Source: Stenotrophomonas maltophilia (lineage in GTDB: Bacteria; Pseudomonadota; Gammaproteobacteria; Xanthomonadales; Xanthomonadaceae). From it: DNA of 64,000 nucleotides. Positions within the stretch are counted from its first letter, which is position 1; every line of letters begins with the position of its first letter. The stretch is from assembly GCF_002799155.1 (NCBI RefSeq), contig NZ_NERD01000002.1, positions 1,240,001-1,304,000 of the forward strand, in the 5' to 3' direction. The position numbers were made by a program, and so were the translations under genes. The notes below the pieces were generated by a model. It ran no database searches and was not told the origin of the DNA. It saw only the letters and a list, made by a program, of their open reading frames with translations. Below are positions 14,110 to 26,456 of the stretch, in pieces.

Positions 14110-17100
14110 ATGGACTTTTCCCGTTTCTTCATCGACAGGCCGATCTTCGCGGCGGTGCTGTCGATCGTGATCTTCGCCGCAGGCCTGATCACGATCCCGA
14201 TCCTGCCGATCAGCGAGTACCCGGAAGTGGTGCCGCCGTCGGTGGTCGTGCGCACGGTGTATCCGGGCGCCAACCCCAAGGTCATTGCCGAGACCGTCGC
14301 CACCCCGCTTGAAGAGGCGATCAACGGCGTCGAAGGCATGATGTACCTGAAGTCGGTTGCCGGCTCGGACGGTGTGCTGCAGATGACCGTCACCTTCCGC
14401 CCGGGCACCGACCCGGATGCGGCGGCGGTGAAGGTGCAGAACCGCGTGGCGCAGGCTCAGGCGCGCCTGCCCGAAGACGTGCGCCGGCAAGGCGTGACCA
14501 CGCAGAAGCAGTCGCCGACCTTCCTGATGGTGGTGCACCTGACCTCGCCGCAGGGCAAGTACGACACCCTGTACCTGCGCAACTACGCCCGCCTGCACGT
14601 CAAGGACGCGCTGGCCCGTATCCCGGGCGTGGGTGATGCACAGATCTTCGGTGGCGGTGACTACGCCATGCGCGCCTGGCTGGACCCGGACAAGGTGGCT
14701 TCGCGCGGCCTGACCGCCAGCGACGTGGTGCGCGCGATGCGTGAGCAGAACGTGCAGGTTTCGGCCGGCCAGCTCGGTGCCGAACCGTTGCCGAACAGCC
14801 AGTTCCTGACCCTGATCAATGCCCAGGGCCGCCTGAAGACCGAAAAGGAATTCGGCGACATCGTGCTCAAGAGCGGCACCGATGGCGAGATCGTGCGCCT
14901 GGCCGACGTGGCCCGCCTGGAGCTGGGGGCCGGCGACTACACTCTGCGCTCGCAGCTGGACGGCAAGAATGCGGTCGGCATTGGTATCTTCCAGTCGCCC
15001 GGTGCCAATGCACTGGAGATCCGTGACCAGGTCATCTCGACGATGGACGAGATGCAGAAGACCATGCCCGCCGACGTGAAGTACGAAGCGGTGTATGACA
15101 CCACCATCTTCGTGCGCGACTCGATCAAGGCCGTGGTCTCCACGCTGCTGGAAGCCATCGCGCTGGTGGTGCTGGTGGTGATCCTGTTCCTGCAGACCTG
15201 GCGTGCGTCGATCATTCCGTTGATCGCGGTGCCGGTGTCGGTGGTGGGTACTTTCGCCGCGCTGTACCTGCTGGGCTTCTCGATCAACACGCTGAGCCTG
15301 TTCGGCCTGGTGCTGGCGATCGGCATCGTGGTCGACGACGCGATCGTGGTGGTGGAGAACGTCGAGCGCAACATCGAGGAAGGCCTGTCGCCCACTGCGG
15401 CGGCACACCAGGCCATGCGCGAGGTCTCTGGCCCGATCGTGGCGATCGCGCTGGTGCTGTGTGCGGTGTTCGTACCCATGGCCTTCCTGTCCGGTGTCAC
15501 CGGCCAGTTCTACAAGCAGTTCGCGGTCACCATCGCCATCTCCACGGTGATCTCGGCGATCAACTCGCTGACCCTGTCGCCGGCGCTGGCCGCGCGCCTG
15601 CTGAAGGCCCACGGCGCTCCGAAGGACGGCCCGAGCCGTCTGATCGACCGCCTGTTCGGCTGGGTGTTCCGTCCGTTCAACCGCTTCTTCAAGTCCAGCT
15701 CGGAGAAGTACGAGCGTGGCGTGGCCCGCATCCTCGGCCGTCGCGGCGCGGTGTTCGTGGTCTACGCGATCCTGCTGGTCGGTACCGGGGTGATCTTCAA
15801 GCTGGTGCCGCCGGGTTTCATCCCGACCCAGGACAAGCTGTACCTGATCGCTGGTGTGAAGCTTCCGGAGGGTTCGTCGATCGCGCGTACCGATGAAATG
15901 CTGCGCAAGGTCGCCAAGATCGCCCAGGAAACCGACGGCGTGGCCCACACCATCTCGTTCCCGGGTTTGAACGCGCTGCAGTTCACCAATACGCCGAACA
16001 CCGGTGTGGCGTTCATTCCGCTCAAGCCGTTCGCCGAGCGCCATGGCCGTACCGCCGCGCAGATCAATGCCGAGATCAACCAGAAGATCGCCGGCCTGCA
16101 GGAGGGCTTCGCCTTCGCGATGATGCCGCCGCCGATCCTCGGCCTGGGCAACGGCAACGGCTACCAGATGTTCATCGAGGACCGTGGCAACCTGGGTTAC
16201 GGCGCGCTGCAGAATGCCGTGCAGGCGATGCAGGGCACCGTTGCGCAGACGCCAGGCATGGCCTTCCCGATTTCCAGCTACCAGGCCAATGTGCCGCAGC
16301 TGGATGCCGAGGTCGACCGCGTCAAGGCCAAGGCACAGGGCGTGCAGCTGACCGAACTGTTCGACACACTGCAGACCTACCTCGGCTCTGCCTACGTCAA
16401 CGACTTCAACCAGTTCGGTCGTACCTGGCAGGTGATCGCGCAGGCGGACGGTCCGTACCGCGAAACGGTCGAGGATATCGGCAAGCTGCGCACCCGCAAC
16501 GACCGCGGCGAGATGGTGCCGATCGGTTCGATGGTCACCATCAAGCAGACCTTCGGCCCGGACCCGGTGCTGCGCTTCAATGGCTATCCGGCGGCTGACC
16601 TGGCCGGTGAAGCCGACCCGCGCCTGCTGTCTTCGGCCGAGGCGATGAACAAGCTGACCGAGATCGCCGGCAAGGTGCTGCCGGTAGGCATGACCACCGA
16701 ATGGACCGACCTGAGCTACCAGCAGGCAACCCAGGGCAAGGCCGCCTTCATCGTGTTCCCGGTGGCGATCATGCTGGCCTTCCTGGTGCTGGCCGCGCTG
16801 TACGAGAGCTGGTCGCTGCCGCTGGCGGTGATCCTGATCGTGCCGATGACCCTGCTGTCCGCACTGTTCGGCGTGTGGCTGACCGGTGGCGACAACAACG
16901 TGTTCGTGCAGGTCGGCCTGGTGGTGCTGATGGGCCTGGCGTGCAAGAACGCGATCCTGATCGTCGAATTCGCCAGAGAGCTGGAGATGGGCGGCAAGGG
17001 CATCGTTGAGTCCGCGCTGGAAGCCTGCCGCCTGCGTCTGCGCCCGATCGTGATGACCTCCATCGCGTTCATCGCCGGCACCGTACCGCTGGTGCTGTCG

Positions 17101-17280
17101 CACGGCGCGGGTGCCGAGGTGCGCTCGGTAACGGGTATCACGGTGTTTGCTGGCATGCTGGGCGTGACCCTGTTCGGCCTGTTCCTCACCCCGGTGTTCT
17201 ACGTGGCCCTGCGCAAGTTCGTCACCCGCAACGGTGGTGGCCAGCTGGTGCAGCACGGCGAGCCGACCATCCATCACTGA
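14110..17280 (+). CDS. smeW: RND multidrug efflux transporter SmeW
   Basis: A 1056-residue HAE1-family inner-membrane pump. It begins MDFSRFFIDRPIFAAVLS, has 12 predicted TM segments and two large periplasmic loops. Proton-relay residues are present: the Asp pair in GIVVDDAIVV (TM4) and Lys in LACKNAILIVEFA (TM10). The SmeVWX system exports chloramphenicol, quinolones and tetracycline-class compounds in S. maltophilia. It lies 127 bp after smeV and 66 bp before smeU2. Confidence 0.96.
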   Translation: MDFSRFFIDRPIFAAVLSIVIFAAGLITIPILPISEYPEVVPPSVVVRTVYPGANPKVIAETVATPLEEAINGVEGMMYLKSVAGSDGVLQMTVTFRPGTDPDAAAVKVQNRVAQAQARLPEDVRRQGVTTQKQSPTFLMVVHLTSPQGKYDTLYLRNYARLHVKDALARIPGVGDAQIFGGGDYAMRAWLDPDKVASRGLTASDVVRAMREQNVQVSAGQLGAEPLPNSQFLTLINAQGRLKTEKEFGDIVLKSGTDGEIVRLADVARLELGAGDYTLRSQLDGKNAVGIGIFQSPGANALEIRDQVISTMDEMQKTMPADVKYEAVYDTTIFVRDSIKAVVSTLLEAIALVVLVVILFLQTWRASIIPLIAVPVSVVGTFAALYLLGFSINTLSLFGLVLAIGIVVDDAIVVVENVERNIEEGLSPTAAAHQAMREVSGPIVAIALVLCAVFVPMAFLSGVTGQFYKQFAVTIAISTVISAINSLTLSPALAARLLKAHGAPKDGPSRLIDRLFGWVFRPFNRFFKSSSEKYERGVARILGRRGAVFVVYAILLVGTGVIFKLVPPGFIPTQDKLYLIAGVKLPEGSSIARTDEMLRKVAKIAQETDGVAHTISFPGLNALQFTNTPNTGVAFIPLKPFAERHGRTAAQINAEINQKIAGLQEGFAFAMMPPPILGLGNGNGYQMFIEDRGNLGYGALQNAVQAMQGTVAQTPGMAFPISSYQANVPQLDAEVDRVKAKAQGVQLTELFDTLQTYLGSAYVNDFNQFGRTWQVIAQADGPYRETVEDIGKLRTRNDRGEMVPIGSMVTIKQTFGPDPVLRFNGYPAADLAGEADPRLLSSAEAMNKLTEIAGKVLPVGMTTEWTDLSYQQATQGKAAFIVFPVAIMLAFLVLAALYESWSLPLAVILIVPMTLLSALFGVWLTGGDNNVFVQVGLVVLMGLACKNAILIVEFARELEMGGKGIVESALEACRLRLRPIVMTSIAFIAGTVPLVLSHGAGAEVRSVTGITVFAGMLGVTLFGLFLTPVFYVALRKFVTRNGGGQLVQHGEPTIHH

Positions 17281-17346: not shown

Positions 17347-18084
17347 ATGAACACCCATCAGAACAAGATCGCACTGGTCACTGGTGCCACCCGCGGTATC
17401 GGCGCCGAGACCGTGCGCCAGCTGGCACAGGCCGGCGTGCACACGCTGCTGGCCGGCCGCAAGCGCGAGACCACCGTGGAGCAGGCACTGAAGCTGCAGG
17501 CCGAGGGCCTGCCAGTGGAAGCGCTGCAGCTGGACGTCACCGACGGTGCCAGCATCGCCGAGGCCGTGCAGCAGGTGCGCGAGCGCCATGGCCGCCTCGA
17601 CATCCTGGTCAACAATGCCGGCGTGCTGCTGGAAAACCCGGCGCAGCGGCCGTCCGAGCAGTCGCTGGACACCTGGCGCCGCACCTTCGACACCAACGTC
17701 TATGCGCTGGTGGCGGTGACCCAGGCATTCCTGCCGCTGCTGCAGCAGGCCAAGGCCGGCCGTATCGTGAATGTCTCCAGCATCCTCGGCTCGCAGACCC
17801 TGCATGCCGATCCGGCGTCCGGCATCTACGACATGAAGGTTCCGGCCTACAACGCCTCCAAGGCAGCGGTGAACAGCTGGACCCTTGCGTTGGCGCACGA
17901 ACTGCGCAGCACGCAGATCAAGGTCAACACCGTGCATCCGGGCTACGTGAAAACCGACATGAACGGCGGCCACGGCGAAATCGAGATCGCCGAGGGCGCG
18001 CGTTCCAGCGTACAGATGGCACTGATCGGCCATGAAGGCCCGAACGGCAGCTTCACCTACCTGGGCGAGGTGCTGCCATGGTGA
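17347..18084 (+). CDS. smeU2: SDR-family oxidoreductase SmeU2
   Basis: A 245-residue classical short-chain dehydrogenase. NAD(P)-binding TGATRGIG (about 12-19), NNAGV, catalytic Ser in NVSSILGS and YxxxK as YNASK are all intact. It sits between the pump and the outer-membrane factor and overlaps smeX by seven bases. The substrate is unknown; the enzyme may modify compounds handled by the pump or contribute to redox balance. Confidence 0.93.
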   Translation: MNTHQNKIALVTGATRGIGAETVRQLAQAGVHTLLAGRKRETTVEQALKLQAEGLPVEALQLDVTDGASIAEAVQQVRERHGRLDILVNNAGVLLENPAQRPSEQSLDTWRRTFDTNVYALVAVTQAFLPLLQQAKAGRIVNVSSILGSQTLHADPASGIYDMKVPAYNASKAAVNSWTLALAHELRSTQIKVNTVHPGYVKTDMNGGHGEIEIAEGARSSVQMALIGHEGPNGSFTYLGEVLPW

Positions 18085-19499
18085 TCCGCACGTTGGCGAT
18101 GGCCGTCTCCAGCCTGGTGCTGGCAGGCTGTGTCAGCGTCGGCCCGAACTACAAGGCCCCGGTGCAGGAGCCGGTGGTCCTCCAGGGCGCACAACAGCCG
18201 GTCTTCAGTACCACCTCGCCGGTGGCCAGCTGGTGGGCGCAGTTCGACGATCCGGTGCTGGAACAGCTGGTGCATGGCGCACTGTCGGACAACCTGGACC
18301 TGCGCGTGGCCGTGGCCCGCGTCAGCCAGGCCCGCGCGGTGTTCGTCGAAAGCCGCTTCGACCAGGCGCCCCACATCACTGCAGGCGGCAGCTACGATCG
18401 TCGCAAGCAACCCGATCCGCAGCTGGGTGGGCAGCGGGTGTTCAGTGAAAGCTACCAGCTCGGCTTCGACGCCGGCTGGGAGCTGGATCTGTTCGGCCGC
18501 AAGCGCCGTGCTGCCGAAGCCGCGCGGGCAGACCTCGGTGCCGAGCAGGCCAACCTGGCCGATGCGCAGGTACTGGTCGCCGCCGAAGTGGCGCGCAACT
18601 ACTTCGAGCTGCGTGGTACGCAGAAGCGCATCGCGGTGGCCCAGCACACGCTGGAGAACCTGCGTGATACGCAGAAGCTGACCGAGGCGCGCTGGGAACT
18701 GGGCGCTGGCAGCGAGCTGGATGTACAGAGCAGCCGTGCCCGCCTGAAGGCGATCGAGGCTGACATCCCGTTGCTGGAAGTAGCCGAGACGCAGTCGCGC
18801 AACCGCTTGGCAGTACTGTTGGGCCAGCGTCCGGAAGTGCTGACCGACATGCTCGCGCCGCATGACGTACCGGCCTTCGCCAAGGCATTGCCGCTGGGCG
18901 ATACCCGCGAACTGCTGCGCCAGCGCGCCGACGTGCGCGTGGCCGAGCGTCGCCTGGCTGCCGCGACCGCGCGCGTGGGCGTGGCCACTGCGGACCTGTT
19001 CCCGCGGTTGTCGTTGTCTGGCTTCGTTGGTTTCCTGGGCGGCGATGCCAGTGGCCTGGTCAATGGCAACAACAAGGCCTGGTCGCTGACCCCGTCATTG
19101 AGCTGGGCGGCGCTCGACTTCGGTACGGTGCGTGCACGCCTGCGTGCCAGCAAGGCGGAAGCCGAAGGGGTGGCGGCACAGTACGAGCAGGCAGTACTGC
19201 TGGCCCTGGAAGACACCGAGAACGCGCTGACCCGTTATTCCAAGCAGCAGGCGCGGCTGGCGATCGTGGTCGAGCAGGCGCAGGCGGCCCGGCGTGCCGA
19301 ATCGCTGGCACAGATCCGCTATCGCGAGGGATCGGAGGACTTCCTGACCCTGCTGGATGCGCAGCGCACGCAGCTGGCGGCCGATGACGCATTGGCGGCG
19401 GCCGAGTCCGAAGTCAATGTCAGCGTGGTGGGTGTGTACAAGGCGTTGGGCGGCTGGGGGCAATCACCGCAGCAACCGAGCGTGGCGCAGGTGCAGTAA
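18078..19499 (+). CDS. smeX: Outer-membrane efflux lipoprotein SmeX
   Basis: A 473-residue NodT/OprN-type outer-membrane factor with lipobox LAGC (Cys18) and two long OEP repeats. It forms the exit duct of the SmeVWX pump. The start overlaps the smeU2 stop, showing the two are translated together. An intrinsic terminator follows six bases after the stop. Confidence 0.95.
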   Translation: MVIRTLAMAVSSLVLAGCVSVGPNYKAPVQEPVVLQGAQQPVFSTTSPVASWWAQFDDPVLEQLVHGALSDNLDLRVAVARVSQARAVFVESRFDQAPHITAGGSYDRRKQPDPQLGGQRVFSESYQLGFDAGWELDLFGRKRRAAEAARADLGAEQANLADAQVLVAAEVARNYFELRGTQKRIAVAQHTLENLRDTQKLTEARWELGAGSELDVQSSRARLKAIEADIPLLEVAETQSRNRLAVLLGQRPEVLTDMLAPHDVPAFAKALPLGDTRELLRQRADVRVAERRLAAATARVGVATADLFPRLSLSGFVGFLGGDASGLVNGNNKAWSLTPSLSWAALDFGTVRARLRASKAEAEGVAAQYEQAVLLALEDTENALTRYSKQQARLAIVVEQAQAARRAESLAQIRYREGSEDFLTLLDAQRTQLAADDALAAAESEVNVSVVGVYKALGGWGQSPQQPSVAQVQ

Positions 19500-21347: not shown

Positions 21348-21590
21348 TCAGTCGGCAGGCAGGTACCACTGGCCATTCTGGTCAATCCAGTACACCTGGA
21401 TGTAGGAAGTGCCGTCCTCGTTGAAGTACGTCACTTCGCAACGCTGATGGTAATGGGGCCCCATCTTGACCGGGACGCAGTTCGTGTTCTCCGGACCACC
21501 TCCACCACCGCTGGCGGCGGCCTGGGATGGGATGGAGAAAGCTCCCACGGCAAACATCAGCGCGGCCATCGTTGCCAGTTGCAGTTTCAT
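21348..21590 (-). CDS. Small secreted protein, unknown
   Basis: An 80-residue protein with a signal peptide (MKLQLATMAALMFAVGAFS then QAAA) and a short mature part starting with a five-glycine run, two Cys residues (TNCVPV and QRCEV) and aromatic residues in its C-terminal half (TYFNEDG, QVYWID, QWYLPAD). AAGGA lies eight bases before the ATG at 21590. I do not recognise the family. The paired cysteines suggest one disulfide. Confidence 0.6.
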   Translation of the reverse strand: MKLQLATMAALMFAVGAFSIPSQAAASGGGGGPENTNCVPVKMGPHYHQRCEVTYFNEDGTSYIQVYWIDQNGQWYLPAD

Positions 21591-21769
21591 AAGCATCATC
21601 CTTGCTTTCTGCAATCGCGCACATGCGCATTGCGTGTGTAACACGCGAATCAGACTGCCGGAAGTGCCCCGCCCGGATCAGTCTTCGATCTCGCCGCGTC
21701 GGCTGGCAGCGCATATCGCCTGCGCGCTGCTCGCCACACCCGGACACTGGCGTGCGCGACGCAGAGGGT

Positions 21770-21937
21770 TCAATCCGTGCGGGCCATCGCCGCGTCGCGC
21801 TCCAGCCAGATTGCGGTGGCGAACACCAGCAGGCGGTCGTAGCCCAGTGGCGATGCAGCGTCGCGCAGCACGCTGCCGACCGCGGCCAGTGACCGCGCCT
21901 GTTCCAGTTCCAGCAGCGCGGGCACCGGCGCAGTCAT
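21770..21937 (-). CDS. Small protein downstream of hchA, unknown
   Basis: A 55-residue acidic protein (MTAPVPALLELEQARSL) whose ATG begins four bases after the hchA stop codon, so it is likely in the same transcript. It contains no membrane segment or known motif. The 180 bp between this gene and the small secreted protein gene show no supported feature. Confidence 0.5.
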   Translation of the reverse strand: MTAPVPALLELEQARSLAAVGSVLRDAASPLGYDRLLVFATAIWLERDAAMARTD

Positions 21938-21941
21938 TGGC

Positions 21942-22814
21942 TCAGCGCCCGGCCAGCGCGTCGAGCAGCGTGCGCGCGGCCAGCTTGCCCAGCGCATTGC
22001 CGGCCAGCGGACTGTCGCCGGTCAGCAGCAGGCGATCCTGCAGCAGGCTGCCATCGATCCCCTCATTGACGATCTGCACGCCCTGCTGGACCAGGCGTTC
22101 ACCGAAGTACCAACGCAGCTGCCCCGGCATATAGCCGATCTCCGGTGTCTGCCGGTCCATCGCGTCGGGGAAGGCACAGACGCGATAGCCGCGGAACAGT
22201 GAGCTACCTCCGGCTTCATCGACACCCGCCGCCAGCAGCGCTGCCGGACCATGGCACAGCGTGATGATGTGGCGCTGCGCGGCCATGGCCCATTGCAGCG
22301 CGGATTTCACTGCCGTGCTCTCAGGCAGGCCGATCAGCGCGCCGTGGCCACCGGGAATGAAGATGGCGGCATAGTCCGAGTCGGCTCCCAGGCCAGCCAC
22401 CACCTCGTCCAGCTGCAACGGCTGGCGGAAGCGCCCCTCATAGCGTTCGTACAGCGCGCCGATCTCGCGGTCCTCGCGCGGGAAGGCCCACCATTCGAAC
22501 TTGACGGCGTTGCCGGACAGCGTCGCCACGTCGATATCGAAGCCGGCCTTGTCCAGGTGGTACATCGGCAGCAGGGTTTCCACCGGATGGTTGCCGGTGG
22601 AGAACAGATGGCCATTGGCGGTCGGCAGATAACGCTCATCGGCAGCGATCATCAGCACCTTCCAGCGGCCGTCGCGGCGTGCATCCGGATACTCGGCGCC
22701 GGACAGGTTGCTCTGCGGCGAGGTGAACTGCGACAGCGAGTACGGCGACGGGAAGAACGCATCGCGCTCGGCCGGATCGGGGCTGGGCTGGCGGCTGGGC
22801 TCTTGCCTGTTCAT
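21942..22814 (-). CDS. hchA: DJ-1/PfpI-superfamily chaperone-glyoxalase (Hsp31)
   Basis: A 290-residue protein of the HchA type, a heat-inducible chaperone and glutathione-independent glyoxalase III/deglycase. The nucleophile elbow is TLCHGPAALLAAG, and the conserved Glu region FIPGGHGALIGLPES is present; the N-terminal ERDAFFPSPYSLSQFT segment is typical. A perfect GGAGGT lies upstream of the ATG at 22814. Divergent from the peptide/P450 cassette at 23012. Confidence 0.92.
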   Translation of the reverse strand: MNRQEPSRQPSPDPAERDAFFPSPYSLSQFTSPQSNLSGAEYPDARRDGRWKVLMIAADERYLPTANGHLFSTGNHPVETLLPMYHLDKAGFDIDVATLSGNAVKFEWWAFPREDREIGALYERYEGRFRQPLQLDEVVAGLGADSDYAAIFIPGGHGALIGLPESTAVKSALQWAMAAQRHIITLCHGPAALLAAGVDEAGGSSLFRGYRVCAFPDAMDRQTPEIGYMPGQLRWYFGERLVQQGVQIVNEGIDGSLLQDRLLLTGDSPLAGNALGKLAARTLLDALAGR

Positions 22815-22930
22815 GCGGACCTCCGTTGGGGGAAAGTGAGTCCAGCATAGGAGGCCGCGTGCGCAGGCGCGATGAGGGATTCCCCTCAATGGACCAGCAC
22901 CTCGATGTTGCATCGCGGCACCGGCCCGGT

Positions 22931-22959
22931 TGGACAGCAGGATTATGTCGTGTTATCTA
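22931..22959 (+). promoter_or_regulatory. Possible promoter of the peptide-P450 cassette
   Basis: TGGACA (22931-22936; five of six match the -35 consensus), a 17-base spacer, and TATCTA (22954-22959; a weak -10). The predicted start falls at or in the palindrome that follows. Confidence 0.3.
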
Positions 22960-22965
22960 GCCGGT

Positions 22966-22982
22966 GCCGGGATAATCCCGGC
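22966..22982. promoter_or_regulatory. 17-bp palindrome upstream of the peptide gene
   Basis: GCCGGGAT and ATCCCGGC form perfect 8-bp arms around a single A. It lies 30 bp before the peptide start codon and just downstream of the possible promoter, a position suited to an operator or a 5' leader hairpin. Confidence 0.45.
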
Positions 22983-23011
22983 ATAACCACACAGCAAGCA
23001 AAGGAATGAAA

Positions 23012-23110
23012 ATGAAAAGATTCGCCCGAGCATTGCGCGTCACTCTGAATATTCATCCGAACGAGAAGAGCAGTGTGTGGAATACCTGGCCGCTCTGGGT
23101 CGAGTTCTGA
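23012..23110 (+). CDS. Putative P450-modified RiPP precursor peptide
   Basis: A 32-codon ORF too short for routine callers. AAGGA (23001-23005) lies six bases before the ATG at 23012; an ATG at 23006 overlaps it and is less likely. The peptide starts with a basic leader-like stretch (MKRFARALRVTLNIHPNEK) and ends VWNTWPLWVEF. Aromatic residues fall at exact three-residue intervals: Trp23, Trp26, Trp29, Phe32. It is followed 83 bp later by a cytochrome P450 gene on the same strand. Short precursors with clustered C-terminal aromatics beside a single P450 are the hallmark of P450-crosslinked ribosomal peptides (biarylitide, cittilin, tryptorubin types). The core does not match the motifs of those groups that I know. 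Function is inferred from context only. Confidence 0.6.
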   Translation: MKRFARALRVTLNIHPNEKSSVWNTWPLWVEF

Positions 23111-23113
23111 TCC

Positions 23114-23175
23114 CGCGGGGGCGCCCCGCGATTGAGCGGTAGCAAGACGAAGGGACTCGTCTTTCGAGTCCCTTC
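23114..23175 (+). terminator. Two hairpins between peptide and P450 genes
   Basis: A perfect 7-bp stem (CGCGGGG/CCCCGCG, 23114-23130) begins three bases after the peptide stop, and a perfect 11-bp stem (GAAGGGACTCG/CGAGTCCCTTC, 23149-23175) follows. Neither has a T-tract, so they look like an mRNA-stabilising or partial read-through barrier that would give more peptide than enzyme. Confidence 0.6.
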
Positions 23176-23193
23176 CTGCCGGAGACGCACTGC

Positions 23194-24417
23194 ATGCAAG
23201 GGATGTCGAATGAGGGCAGCGCCATCGCTGCCGAGCGCTTGGCTGCGCGCGTGGAGCGCGAAGGCCCGGTGCTGAAACTGGAAACCGGCGGTATCGGGGT
23301 GTTCTGCCCGGAGCTGGCCGGCAAGGTCGACAAGGAGAATTCCGAGCACCTGTACGTGGTCGAATCGCTGGCGGACCTGTTCCGCCGGCACGAACGCGTG
23401 CGCTGGACCGAAGTACGCAGCCTGATCGCCACGCGCAGTGCCGAACTCACCGGCGCACAGAATCTTGAAGCGCTGCAGTCGCGCATGCGGCAGGCATTGG
23501 ACGCACTGTGCGGGCGGGCGCTGGATGCCACGCCCGCGGTGTGGAAGGTGATGGCCCATCCGTTGATCCCGATGGTGATCGAAGGCCTCGATGCGCGCGG
23601 CACCGCGGCCATCGAGCGCGCCCTGCACCTGCGCTACACGACCCAGGTCGAGCAGGTCATCCATCGGCGCCACCTGCTGCGCAATTTCCTTATCGGTCGT
23701 GGCGAATCACGGGCGATCGCAGCCGAACTCAAGCGCCGGGTCCGAAGCGGGCGTTCGGCGCTGGACTACGCACAATCATTGCTGACCCTGCGCGAACGCA
23801 TCGGTCTGGACAAGGTCACCTACCTGGTCACCGTGCAGCTGATCGCCATTTCCGGCGTGCCCGGCATGATGGCTGCCTGCCTGCTGCTGGCGATGCAGAT
23901 GCATCCGCACTGGCTTCAGCGCATCGAGGAGGAATTCGCGCCGCTCTCGGACGCGGAGATCCACGCATTGCCGATGGCCAGGATTCCCTGCACCCTGCGC
24001 TTCCTGAAGGAAGTGATGCGGCTGTACTCCACGCCCTTCAACAACCGTCGCGTGGCGGCCTGCGATCTGAAGGTGGAAGGGCAGGCCATTGCCGAAGGCA
24101 CGGTGTTCGAGCTCAGTTCGTTCATCCAGCATCGTTCGGCGAAGTACTGGGATGACCCGCTGCAGTTCGATCCCGATCGCTGGCTGCCCGAGCGGCGCAA
24201 GCGCACCGCCGGCATCTATGTGCCTTATGGCTTTCCCACGCGTTCCTGCGTTGGATCGGCGGTGGGCAATGCACAGCTGGTATTGCTGTGTGCGCTGTTG
24301 GCGCGCGAGTTCCGTTTCACCCCCAGTGCCGACTACCGGCCCGAGGTGCGCATGGAGGGCTTCGCGATCCCGGCGGCGCTGCACGGCACGTTCTCGCGGC
24401 GCGTGCCGGCTGCCTGA
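23194..24417 (+). CDS. Cytochrome P450 of a peptide cassette
   Basis: A 407-residue P450. The K-helix ExxR is Glu273-Val-Met-Arg276 (FLKEVMRLYST), the meander region has FDPDRWLPER, and the heme loop is YGFPTRSCVG with thiolate Cys352. The I-helix reads AISGVPGMMAAC (218-229) where most monooxygenases have an acid-Thr pair; here Pro-Gly replaces it. Loss of that oxygen-activating pair would fit an oxidative coupling enzyme rather than a hydroxylase. No ferredoxin or reductase gene is adjacent. The start at 23194 has GGAG nine bases upstream; ATG 23203 is an alternative. The only same-strand partner is the 32-codon peptide gene. Confidence 0.9.
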   Translation: MQGMSNEGSAIAAERLAARVEREGPVLKLETGGIGVFCPELAGKVDKENSEHLYVVESLADLFRRHERVRWTEVRSLIATRSAELTGAQNLEALQSRMRQALDALCGRALDATPAVWKVMAHPLIPMVIEGLDARGTAAIERALHLRYTTQVEQVIHRRHLLRNFLIGRGESRAIAAELKRRVRSGRSALDYAQSLLTLRERIGLDKVTYLVTVQLIAISGVPGMMAACLLLAMQMHPHWLQRIEEEFAPLSDAEIHALPMARIPCTLRFLKEVMRLYSTPFNNRRVAACDLKVEGQAIAEGTVFELSSFIQHRSAKYWDDPLQFDPDRWLPERRKRTAGIYVPYGFPTRSCVGSAVGNAQLVLLCALLAREFRFTPSADYRPEVRMEGFAIPAALHGTFSRRVPAA

Positions 24418-24434
24418 TCTTCGGGGCTGGCGGC

Positions 24435-26456
24435 TTAATTTCCTATTCGCCCATGATTCTGCATGTCCTCATGCAGGATCCGCCGCAGCTCGACGATGGC
24501 GGGCGTTGCCTCCTGCACGCTGTGCCCGGACACGATCACTTTCTCCGAATCCGCATGCGGCAGGTGGGAGCTCCAATAGGGCACCAGCCCGTCGTCGGTT
24601 TTTTCCAGCGGGCCATCGGCCTTGGCGCGGGCGATGATCGAGTGGTAGCGCACCTTCGGAGCCATCGGCAGGTCGGCCACGGCGCGGACGAACGGGTCGT
24701 CCTTGTCCAGGTTCTGGATGCTGTTCATCTGGTAGCCGTGCTTGCCGTCATTGCGATCGATCTTGCCGTCGTTGGCGATGGTGGCCACGTCCTCCAGTAC
24801 GGTCAGTGGCAGCCGTACCAGGCGCCCGATCCAGCGGCCCAGGCGGGTGCCCGCGACGTCGGTACCGCGGTGCGGCGTGGCGATGAACACCACCCGCGAC
24901 ACTTCCGGCTCCGGCAGGAAGGTCAGCACCGGTGCGCCCTTGGTCCGCAGCAGTTCGCGCTGTGCTGGCGTCATCTGTGCAGTCGCCAGCAGGGTCTCTA
25001 CCAGATGATCGCCGGAAGAGGAGATCATCAGCCGCGCGATCACCCCGCCCATGCTGTGCCCGACCAGCACCATGTCATGCGAGGCCTGCGCCTTGCCGCT
25101 GGGGTCGAAGTGCTTGAATACCTCGGCCAGCGTGTGGCGCATGGCATCGTGGCTCATCGCGATGGGCATGTTGGTCGGGTAATAGAACTGCCAGACCTGG
25201 AAGTCCTGGCGGATCTCGTCGTCGCGCATCAGTTCGTTGGCGACGTTGACCCAGGCCTCCGGACTGCTGGCCAGGCCATGGATCATCAGCAGCACGCGGC
25301 GGTTCGGGTCGTAGGGCTGCATCATGTAAAGATGCGGCGTGTCGATGCCACCCTTGCCACCAAACAACGAGCGCAGCGACTGGTGGCTGAAGTTGGAGCG
25401 TGCCAGCCACAGTGCATAGCCGGCAGTGAAGTTGGCCGCCAGTGGCACCTGCTGGCCGTGCAGGGTCACTTCCGAGATCTGGTAGGGATCGTGGATCTCC
25501 AGTTCCGGCTCGTCGTCATGCAGCACTTCCCACAGATTCTTTCCCGAGAAGCGCAACAGCACCGTCATCGAAGGCGAAGGCATCTCGCTCCAGCTCTGGG
25601 TGGCCGAGGTGCTTGCCTGCGCGGTGGATGTCGTTGCTGAAGGCGTGGTGGCCACGCTGCCGGCCGGGTCATCCATCACCGCTACCAGTTCGGCGCCGAA
25701 GCCATCGCGTCGATGCACGCTGCGCAGCGTGCCGCTGAACGACAGCGAGGCGGCCGGCACCAGTTCGGTCGGGGTGCGCGTGTCCAGCGGCGATGCTTCG
25801 CCTGAAGGCGCCAGCACGAAGGTCCAGCGGCCCAGCTGGAAATGGCTGGCCTGGCCGTGCACGCGCCCGGTGGCATAGGCGTTGTACAGCTGCACCGAGG
25901 CTTCCTGTACCGCCAGGTTGTAGTAGTCGCGTACCTGGGTCTGGCGGTCTTCGAAACCGCGCTGGTTGGCGGTGCGTTCGGTGAAGAACAGATAGGCATA
26001 GGCCTGGCGCGCGACCTGCATCCAGGCGTCCAGGCGCGGCTGGAAGTCGGCATCCAGCTCGGTGATCGCAGTCTTGGCGCGGCCGGATGCCGAGTACTCG
26101 CGCTTCGGCGCCGGCAGGGTCATCGCATACTGCAGCCACAGCTCGGCCAGGCTGGAGCGCTTGTCTTCCTCGCGCACCACGATGCTGCCTTCCATCGCCT
26201 CGATGCAGGCCAGGCCCGGCTTGGCGCAGACGCCTTCGTCGAGGCCGGCCACCCGCAGGGTCTCCGTGGTTGCCGCGCTGAGCTTGCCGGAGGTGAGGAT
26301 GTCACCGCGCTTGAGCGCGATGTACTGGCCGGGCGTGACCGAGGCGACCTGCACCGACGGCCCGAACTGGCGCAGCGTCGCGCAGCCGCCCAGGGTGAGC
26401 AGAACGGTGATGATGAGGGTCGTGCGGCCGATGAAGCCCAAGCCCGTGGTAGCCAT
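24435..26456 (-). CDS. Alpha/beta-hydrolase lipoprotein
   Basis: A 673-residue lipoprotein (lipobox LGGC, Cys25) with a long N-terminal region of unknown fold (about 30-330), a Ser/Thr/Ala-rich linker (about 265-290) and a C-terminal alpha/beta-hydrolase domain. The oxyanion turn is IHGLASSPEAW (about 392-402) and the nucleophile elbow GHSMGG (Ser468); a DDGLVP segment and a late His (VSGHSVQ) can complete the triad. Likely a surface or periplasmic lipase/esterase. AGGAG precedes the ATG. Convergent with the P450 gene, 17 bp apart. Confidence 0.85.
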   Translation of the reverse strand: MATTGLGFIGRTTLIITVLLTLGGCATLRQFGPSVQVASVTPGQYIALKRGDILTSGKLSAATTETLRVAGLDEGVCAKPGLACIEAMEGSIVVREEDKRSSLAELWLQYAMTLPAPKREYSASGRAKTAITELDADFQPRLDAWMQVARQAYAYLFFTERTANQRGFEDRQTQVRDYYNLAVQEASVQLYNAYATGRVHGQASHFQLGRWTFVLAPSGEASPLDTRTPTELVPAASLSFSGTLRSVHRRDGFGAELVAVMDDPAGSVATTPSATTSTAQASTSATQSWSEMPSPSMTVLLRFSGKNLWEVLHDDEPELEIHDPYQISEVTLHGQQVPLAANFTAGYALWLARSNFSHQSLRSLFGGKGGIDTPHLYMMQPYDPNRRVLLMIHGLASSPEAWVNVANELMRDDEIRQDFQVWQFYYPTNMPIAMSHDAMRHTLAEVFKHFDPSGKAQASHDMVLVGHSMGGVIARLMISSSGDHLVETLLATAQMTPAQRELLRTKGAPVLTFLPEPEVSRVVFIATPHRGTDVAGTRLGRWIGRLVRLPLTVLEDVATIANDGKIDRNDGKHGYQMNSIQNLDKDDPFVRAVADLPMAPKVRYHSIIARAKADGPLEKTDDGLVPYWSSHLPHADSEKVIVSGHSVQEATPAIVELRRILHEDMQNHGRIGN

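Follow-up and report, generated by a model that had tools for sequence, protein, structure and literature searches.

A conserved tryptophan-repeat peptide and its neighbouring cytochrome P450 form a candidate minimal RiPP unit beside hchA in Stenotrophomonas

We analysed a stretch of DNA of 64,000 nucleotides (the window), which corresponds to positions 1240001-1304000 of a contig within a 4.42-Mb genome. The initial annotation had described a two-gene cassette here, and the coordinates and translation agreed with this: a 32-aa open reading frame (ORF) is followed on the same (+) strand by a cytochrome P450 gene, with 83 bp between the precursor stop and the P450 start. The features of the locus are listed below.

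22873..22888, no strand assigned: palindrome TGAGGG-ATTC-CCCTCA, between hchA and the precursor gene
22889..24452, + strand: extent of the cassette, given by the block of DNA that empty-site relatives lack
22966..22982, no strand assigned: palindrome GCCGGGA-TAA-TCCCGGC, that is GCCGGGATAATCCCGGC, about 30 bases 5' of the precursor start
23012..23110, + strand: precursor peptide gene, 32 aa, translation MKRFARALRVTLNIHPNEKSSVWNTWPLWVEF-stop, with W23, W26, W29 and F32
23149..23175, + strand: intergenic hairpin GAAGGGACTCG-TCTTT-CGAGTCCCTTC, between the precursor and P450 genes, lacking a U-tract
23194..24417, + strand: cytochrome P450 gene, 407 aa, PF00067 at E 1.5e-26, heme Cys352

The exact three-residue spacing of Trp23, Trp26, Trp29 and Phe32 was seen in the translation, as had been described. 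The Shine-Dalgarno sequence, which had been called well placed, is AAAGGA (23000-23005) and ends six bases 5' of the ATG at 23012. An alternative in-frame ATG at 23006 abuts this ribosome-binding site, and the ATG at 23012 is kept in 19/19 loci of the window's type (class A); position 23012 was therefore taken as the precursor start. The tryptic precursor fragment SSVWNTWPLWVEF has a calculated [M+H]+ of 1650.795.

The cassette is flanked by hchA and an alpha/beta hydrolase gene, both on the opposite strand, and hchA scored 461.6 bits against the glyoxalase III model (cut-off, 365). The observation that no protease or exporter is adjacent also held, with one qualification: no peptidase or exporter was found among the scanned genes flanking classes A and B (four in the window and six at three other loci), apart from HchA, which belongs to the DJ-1/PfpI superfamily, a group that includes proteases. 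Some 3.5-9 kb upstream of the cassette, and not adjacent to it, lie two genes at 14110-17280 (+) and 18078-19499 (+), which from their translations we take to be an RND-type efflux pump and an outer-membrane factor, respectively, so that an exporter would be in reach. Four relatives that lack class A were compared at the cassette site. In two of them the site is empty, with flanks 29 bp apart in G024 (L175) and 33 bp apart in G053 (L176); because positions 22889-24452 are gone as one piece in both, the 1.56-kb cassette next to hchA is a discrete unit. The other two relatives, G039 and G020, carry other DNA at this site (1094 and 476 bp, respectively).

P450 loci without the ORF, or an ORF broken by a frameshift or stop, had been named as observations that would speak against the initial annotation. 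Neither was seen among the 19 class A P450 loci that were read (15 in Stenotrophomonas, the other four spread over two further genera of its family), all of which carry the peptide, with its start 178 to 246 bases ahead of the start of the P450 match. The seven distinct peptides gave the consensus M.R..RA.RV..NIHP.E.SS.W..W..W.EF, in which W23, W26, W29 and F32 are fixed and the spacer residues vary. Of the last eleven positions, five are invariant (the four aromatic sites plus E31) and six vary, and the chance that four periodic sites all fall among five invariant ones is 0.015 when codon constraints and relatedness are ignored. Since E31 is as invariant as the aromatics, invariance alone is not proof of crosslinking. 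We obtained a pN/pS of 0.254 for residues 2-32 (14 distinct nucleotide sequences), leader and core behaving alike, and of 0.257 for leader residues 2-20; the class A peptide is under purifying selection. The leader probably spans about residues 1-20 and the core about 21-32, a border drawn from the sequence. It had been proposed to examine whether the Trp/Phe spacing is conserved while leader residues drift. The spacing is invariant and the spacers do drift, but the leader, which reads RxxRAxRVxxNIHPxExSS, is conserved too.

Searched as DNA in 91 genomes of the genus, the motif W-x-x-W-x-x-W-x-x-F-(stop or TGG) had 34 matches, compared with 21 for a reversed control pattern, which is more than chance. 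The 15 class A cassettes of the genus account for 15 of these matches, and only two of the remaining 19 (in G023 and G086) have a true stop codon at the end. The window's own genome contains one match to the motif and zero matches to the control. Genes of 33 codons are easily overlooked, as exemplified by the metagenomic P450 record P0020, which starts inside its own precursor gene in a different frame.

A P450 of this type was present in 18 of the 91 genus genomes, 15 with class A and 11 with an intact class B, whose P450s share 39-42% identity with that of the window. Both classes occur together in eight genus genomes, in six of them within about 5 kb and each with its own precursor; three genomes have class B only, and G009 has class A plus a class B remnant (L027). 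This decayed class B locus (1501-1761 of L027, G009:C33) has a precursor start, MTRLIRA, that runs directly into the P450 end. The family search covered 395 genomes from a larger group and matched 45, of which 20 were full length: five genus members, class A loci L037-L040, class B loci L041 and L042, and class C loci L043-L051. Class B (13 loci) has one P450 and the core IRSKYxYWxxF or close variants, the peptide being MTRLIRALQVSLNLRSDNSTQCIRSKYRYWNIF and variants in 13/13 loci. Class C (11 loci) has two P450s and 1-4 tandem precursors with the core WxWxxYHNI, and its precursors end in WxWxxYHNI or YHHM. A match for the second class C P450 lies nearby in 9/9 family-search loci, and the one in L062 matched PF00067 at 9.7e-22; a MatE or ABC transporter adjoins class C in the two loci checked. 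The class C clusters (L043-L051, L126, L127) are spread over several other genera of the same family, with one additional family each from the order and the class. The full-length relatives beyond the family, in G1356 (another family of the order) and G964 (another family of the class), are both class C.

The results showed that a precursor adjoins the P450 in 43/43 loci read (class A 19/19, class B 13/13, class C 11/11), a count that comprises loci with DNA and leaves out the truncated class B remnant L027 and protein-only metagenomic relatives. The class C motif doubled as a search pattern, and the precursors of L043-L051 had first been seen by position. In all precursors listed, positions -6 and -3 counted from the C-terminus are an aromatic pair, W/W in class A, Y/W in class B and W/Y in class C. 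In a quick P450 tree (SH-aLRT only, long branches flagged, root unsure; L046 left out owing to a flagged stop, probably its terminal stop, as a second search returned the gene without one), class B formed one clade (SH-aLRT 99) and class C one clade (91), and all class A loci fell together with metagenomic relatives (95). A distinct core type goes with each P450 clade.

Wider searches were run on samples that are subsets of larger groups, with the best 4-6 candidates per genome scored. At E<=1e-25, the class-level search matched 11/321 genomes, full length in the window's own genome only, and the phylum-level search matched 36/398, full length in three (the own genome, G032 and G964); at E<=1e-35, the order-level search matched 8/299 genomes, all full length. 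The partial matches in the class and phylum searches are read as ordinary P450s. Plasmids (E 1e-30) and phages (E 1e-20) gave zero matches to the P450, and no new loci came from two extra genus searches with P0018 at E<=1e-60 (2/11 and 9/20 genomes matched, all known).

Cys352, which had been named as the heme ligand, is the same residue in 13/13 aligned P450s, and the ExxR helix (E273, R276) and P223-G224 are also invariant in this set. The I-helix reads SGVPGM, with Pro-Gly in 13/13 in place of the acid and threonine of most P450s, an acid/alcohol pair that serves monooxygenation. Judging from the alignment, loss of this pair is consistent with coupling over hydroxylation, although it is not proof. 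The P450 might instead oxidise a single Trp without crosslinking, or the pathway might free a modified amino acid, as with the nitrating biarylitide P450s. RiPP P450s are described as also hydroxylating (PMC13192836), peptide-bound Tyr as being nitrated and then released (PMC13417212), and the finding of no dedicated protease or exporter beside class A would suit either outcome. However, the fixed three-residue Trp spacing in class A and the common -6/-3 aromatic pair fit coupling better, and the replaced I-helix pair points the same way; we consider oxidation without a crosslink, or amino-acid release, unlikely.

The P450 of L040 has a predicted structure with the P450 fold, and identity to solved structures was at most 21% among the 50 listed. 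For docking, L040 was read through from precursor to P450 as one chain, with an alignment of 35 rows from which class B peptides were left out. The peptide remained unplaced on the P450 in this read-through model, and because residues 1-72 stayed below pLDDT 50, docking has no model support.

The top NCBIfam match of the window's P450 was ApyO, an aromatic-crosslinking P450 of a proteobacterium from the aminopyruvatide system, at 58.8 bits, level with a terpene-pathway P450 (58.7) and far under the ApyO cut-off of 525; the class A peptide has a C-terminal Phe, unlike the Asp that is converted by an MNIO in aminopyruvatides. Biarylitides likewise have one P450 adjoining a tiny precursor gene, but their precursors are given as five residues (PMC13417212), compared with 32 in class A. 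Atropopeptides (bitryptides such as tryptorubin and cihunamide) are defined in PMC11450843 through a motif of the KSLK type together with xWxx[WY]x cores, most of them hexapeptides. The cassette could be a true atropopeptide cluster whose leader motif has drifted, since it shares with that group the two-gene layout, a leader of about 20 residues and a P450 as sole tailoring enzyme, its core contains WxxW twice, and Xanthomonas, of the same family, is a host group reported there. Yet the atropopeptide core, xWxx[WY]x, stands at the C-terminus, whereas in class A the three-residue spacing goes on through a third Trp to a Phe (WxxF), giving a core of about 11-12 residues that exceeds the 6-8 reported. 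Moreover, a KSLK-type motif, which the published search mandates (PMC11450843), is absent from the seven distinct class A peptides, and the leader matches the hyalucidin model instead, below its cut-off. Judged by the published motif, class A is not an atropopeptide, and a drifted cluster seems quite improbable. The pattern KSLK-xWxx[WY]-stop was also absent from 16 genomes of genus g7 (guessed to be Xanthomonas); this does not conflict with the published Xanthomonas finds, because the genomes differ and the pattern allows the KSLK variant only.

The core had been regarded as an unrecognised type. The repetition of the spacing is indeed new, but Trp pairs at i/i+3 are an already known P450 crosslink site in WxxW peptides, such as the cihunamides, in which a C7-N1 bond joins Trp i to Trp i+3 (PMC11002830). 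Our search found no literature combining Stenotrophomonas, RiPP, precursor peptide, P450 and biosynthetic gene cluster, and genome-mining papers may list the cassette.

Hyalucidin A is, according to the title of Yin et al. 2026 (cited in PMC13417212), a bacterial RiPP with a benzofuranoindoline motif that arises by tandem P450 catalysis. Its precursor model, NF053510, was the only or best match among 18950 NCBIfam models for 9/11 peptides at E<=10 and for 8/11 at E<0.2. It matched 2/3 class A peptides (E 0.0083 and 0.0044; profile positions 1-16 and 1-19), 3/3 class B peptides (E 0.0092, 0.017 and 0.11; leader half only, within profile positions 1-20) and 4/5 class C peptides (E 1.2e-4 to 0.64; nearly full profile length). 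The cut-off of 35 bits was not reached in any class (16.3 and 17.1 in class A, 12.7-16.1 in class B, and from no match up to 22.2 in class C), and neither the peptide of the window itself nor one of those from class C had a match. When the leaders were shuffled, 0/10 peptides matched. When whole genomes were probed at E<=10, the model was unspecific, matching 45/60 family and 9/14 control genomes, none above the cut-off, and the window's own genome had no match; the best whole-genome match was the class C precursor of G098.

The leader half of classes A and B and the whole of the class C peptides resemble NF053510 below its cut-off, and class C carries two P450s, in keeping with the tandem P450 of the hyalucidin title; the window's cassette, in contrast, has one. 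Class A further differs from class C in its core (WxxWxxWxxF versus WxWxxYHNI), its single precursor copy and the lack of a MATE/ABC exporter among the scanned flanks. Conservation in class A thus extends beyond the core to the leader, which resembles, below the cut-off of the model, that of the hyalucidin A precursor. On our reading of these likenesses, classes A, B and C would belong to one lineage, its characterised members being the hyalucidin-type clusters, and the class A unit, with its single P450, would be related to the tandem-P450 hyalucidin group.

Between the precursor and the P450, a stem of 11-13 bp was found in 32/32 class A and B loci, with stem sequences that differ by lineage, and the fold of the 83-base gap in the window had a z of -3.27. 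Three base pairs are changed on both sides in the class B stems. Counted on six distinct stems (L026 left out, since its loop length broke the alignment), 0/500 shuffles reached the covariation score and 143/500 had at least as many pairs with both bases changed; the covariation evidence is moderate. Rfam gave zero matches over 22700-24600 at E<=1. The hairpin may stabilise the mRNA or set stoichiometry. With three Trp codons near the stop followed by a strong hairpin ahead of the P450, the short ORF could also be a trpL-like tryptophan attenuator, in which stalling at the Trp codons switches the hairpin and sets P450 expression while the peptide itself is inert. However, the hairpin has no U-tract and was not reported by the terminator scan; class B peptides have one Trp and class C peptides two, in up to four tandem copies, and both keep leader and core. 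The leader codons are protein-constrained, as the pN/pS over residues 2-20 shows, and the leader resembles a RiPP precursor model, NF053510. We regard an attenuator as very improbable.

The precursor-P450 pairing, the fixed Trp and Phe residues, the pN/pS and the leader matches to NF053510 make a minimal RiPP cluster, sister to the hyalucidin group, the most likely explanation. We assign a probability of about 0.72 to the reading that the cassette is a minimal two-gene unit whose peptide is the likely P450 substrate and in which the P450 is predicted to couple the side chains of Trp residues spaced three positions apart. This retains the earlier view of a P450-modified RiPP insofar as a short conserved precursor is tied to the P450 at every locus read, and corrects it on leader conservation and on the i/i+3 spacing, which is known. 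The leader (about residues 1-20) would be bound by the P450, which would then form two oxidative crosslinks, W23-W26 and W26-W29, as indole C-N or C-C bonds with -2 Da each. Because unsubstituted phenyl rings couple poorly, Phe32 would act, together with Glu31, mainly as a C-terminal recognition element rather than as a crosslink residue. Host peptidases would remove the leader, host redox partners would feed the P450, and the intergenic hairpin may hold precursor mRNA at a higher level than P450 mRNA. The predicted Trp-Trp chemistry has a precedent in the i/i+3 bond of the cihunamides (PMC11002830).

If this prediction holds, the cassette represents a new branch of P450-made RiPPs with a repeated Trp motif, and a system suited to asking whether one P450 makes successive crosslinks in register; single-P450 and tandem-P450 (hyalucidin-type) clusters would then fall into a single lineage in which the leader is shared and the cores have been exchanged. 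A bolder joint claim, which we offer tentatively and hold to be rather doubtful, is that the P450 runs along the peptide and makes three crosslinks through W23-W26-W29-F32, an unbroken i/i+3 staircase forming a rigid stapled aromatic helix, and that one leader type is reused with three different aromatic cores. Such a three-crosslink staircase, if true, would be unlike the P450 peptides in the literature surveyed.

Among the 15 class A loci of Stenotrophomonas, 11 have the palindrome at 22966-22982 in identical form, L012 and L013 have a version shorter by one base, and L014 and L015 have an altered one; it is absent from the four class A loci of other genera. The fold of 22930-23030 had a z of only -1.62, and the palindrome is possibly an operator or an RNA hairpin. 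The palindrome at 22873-22888 is also kept in L175 and L176, both without the cassette, and its position fits that of the SmoR-box, described as a motif at -75 to -56 of hchA (PMC4432800). The same source describes the hchA-smoR operon of Stenotrophomonas maltophilia as responding to acyl-homoserine lactones (AHLs) and, for D457 and JV3, genes upstream of hchA in the opposite orientation. In D457, this upstream position is occupied by a class A cassette (L029). Since the cassette adjoins the AHL-responsive hchA-smoR operon, whether its product is controlled by the signals of neighbours is a reasonable question.

In the window, smoR (21681-21955, - strand), which follows hchA and encodes a LuxR-type AHL receptor, retains its first ~57 and last ~30 residues, with an internal loss corresponding to about residues 58-212 of a relative. 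A class B cassette lies near this site in D457 and others and is absent in the window, where the corresponding place is taken by a gene at 21348-21644 (- strand) for a 98-aa protein with a signal-like N-terminus and zero Pfam matches. A stretch similar to the region of this 98-aa gene adjoins class B in G039.
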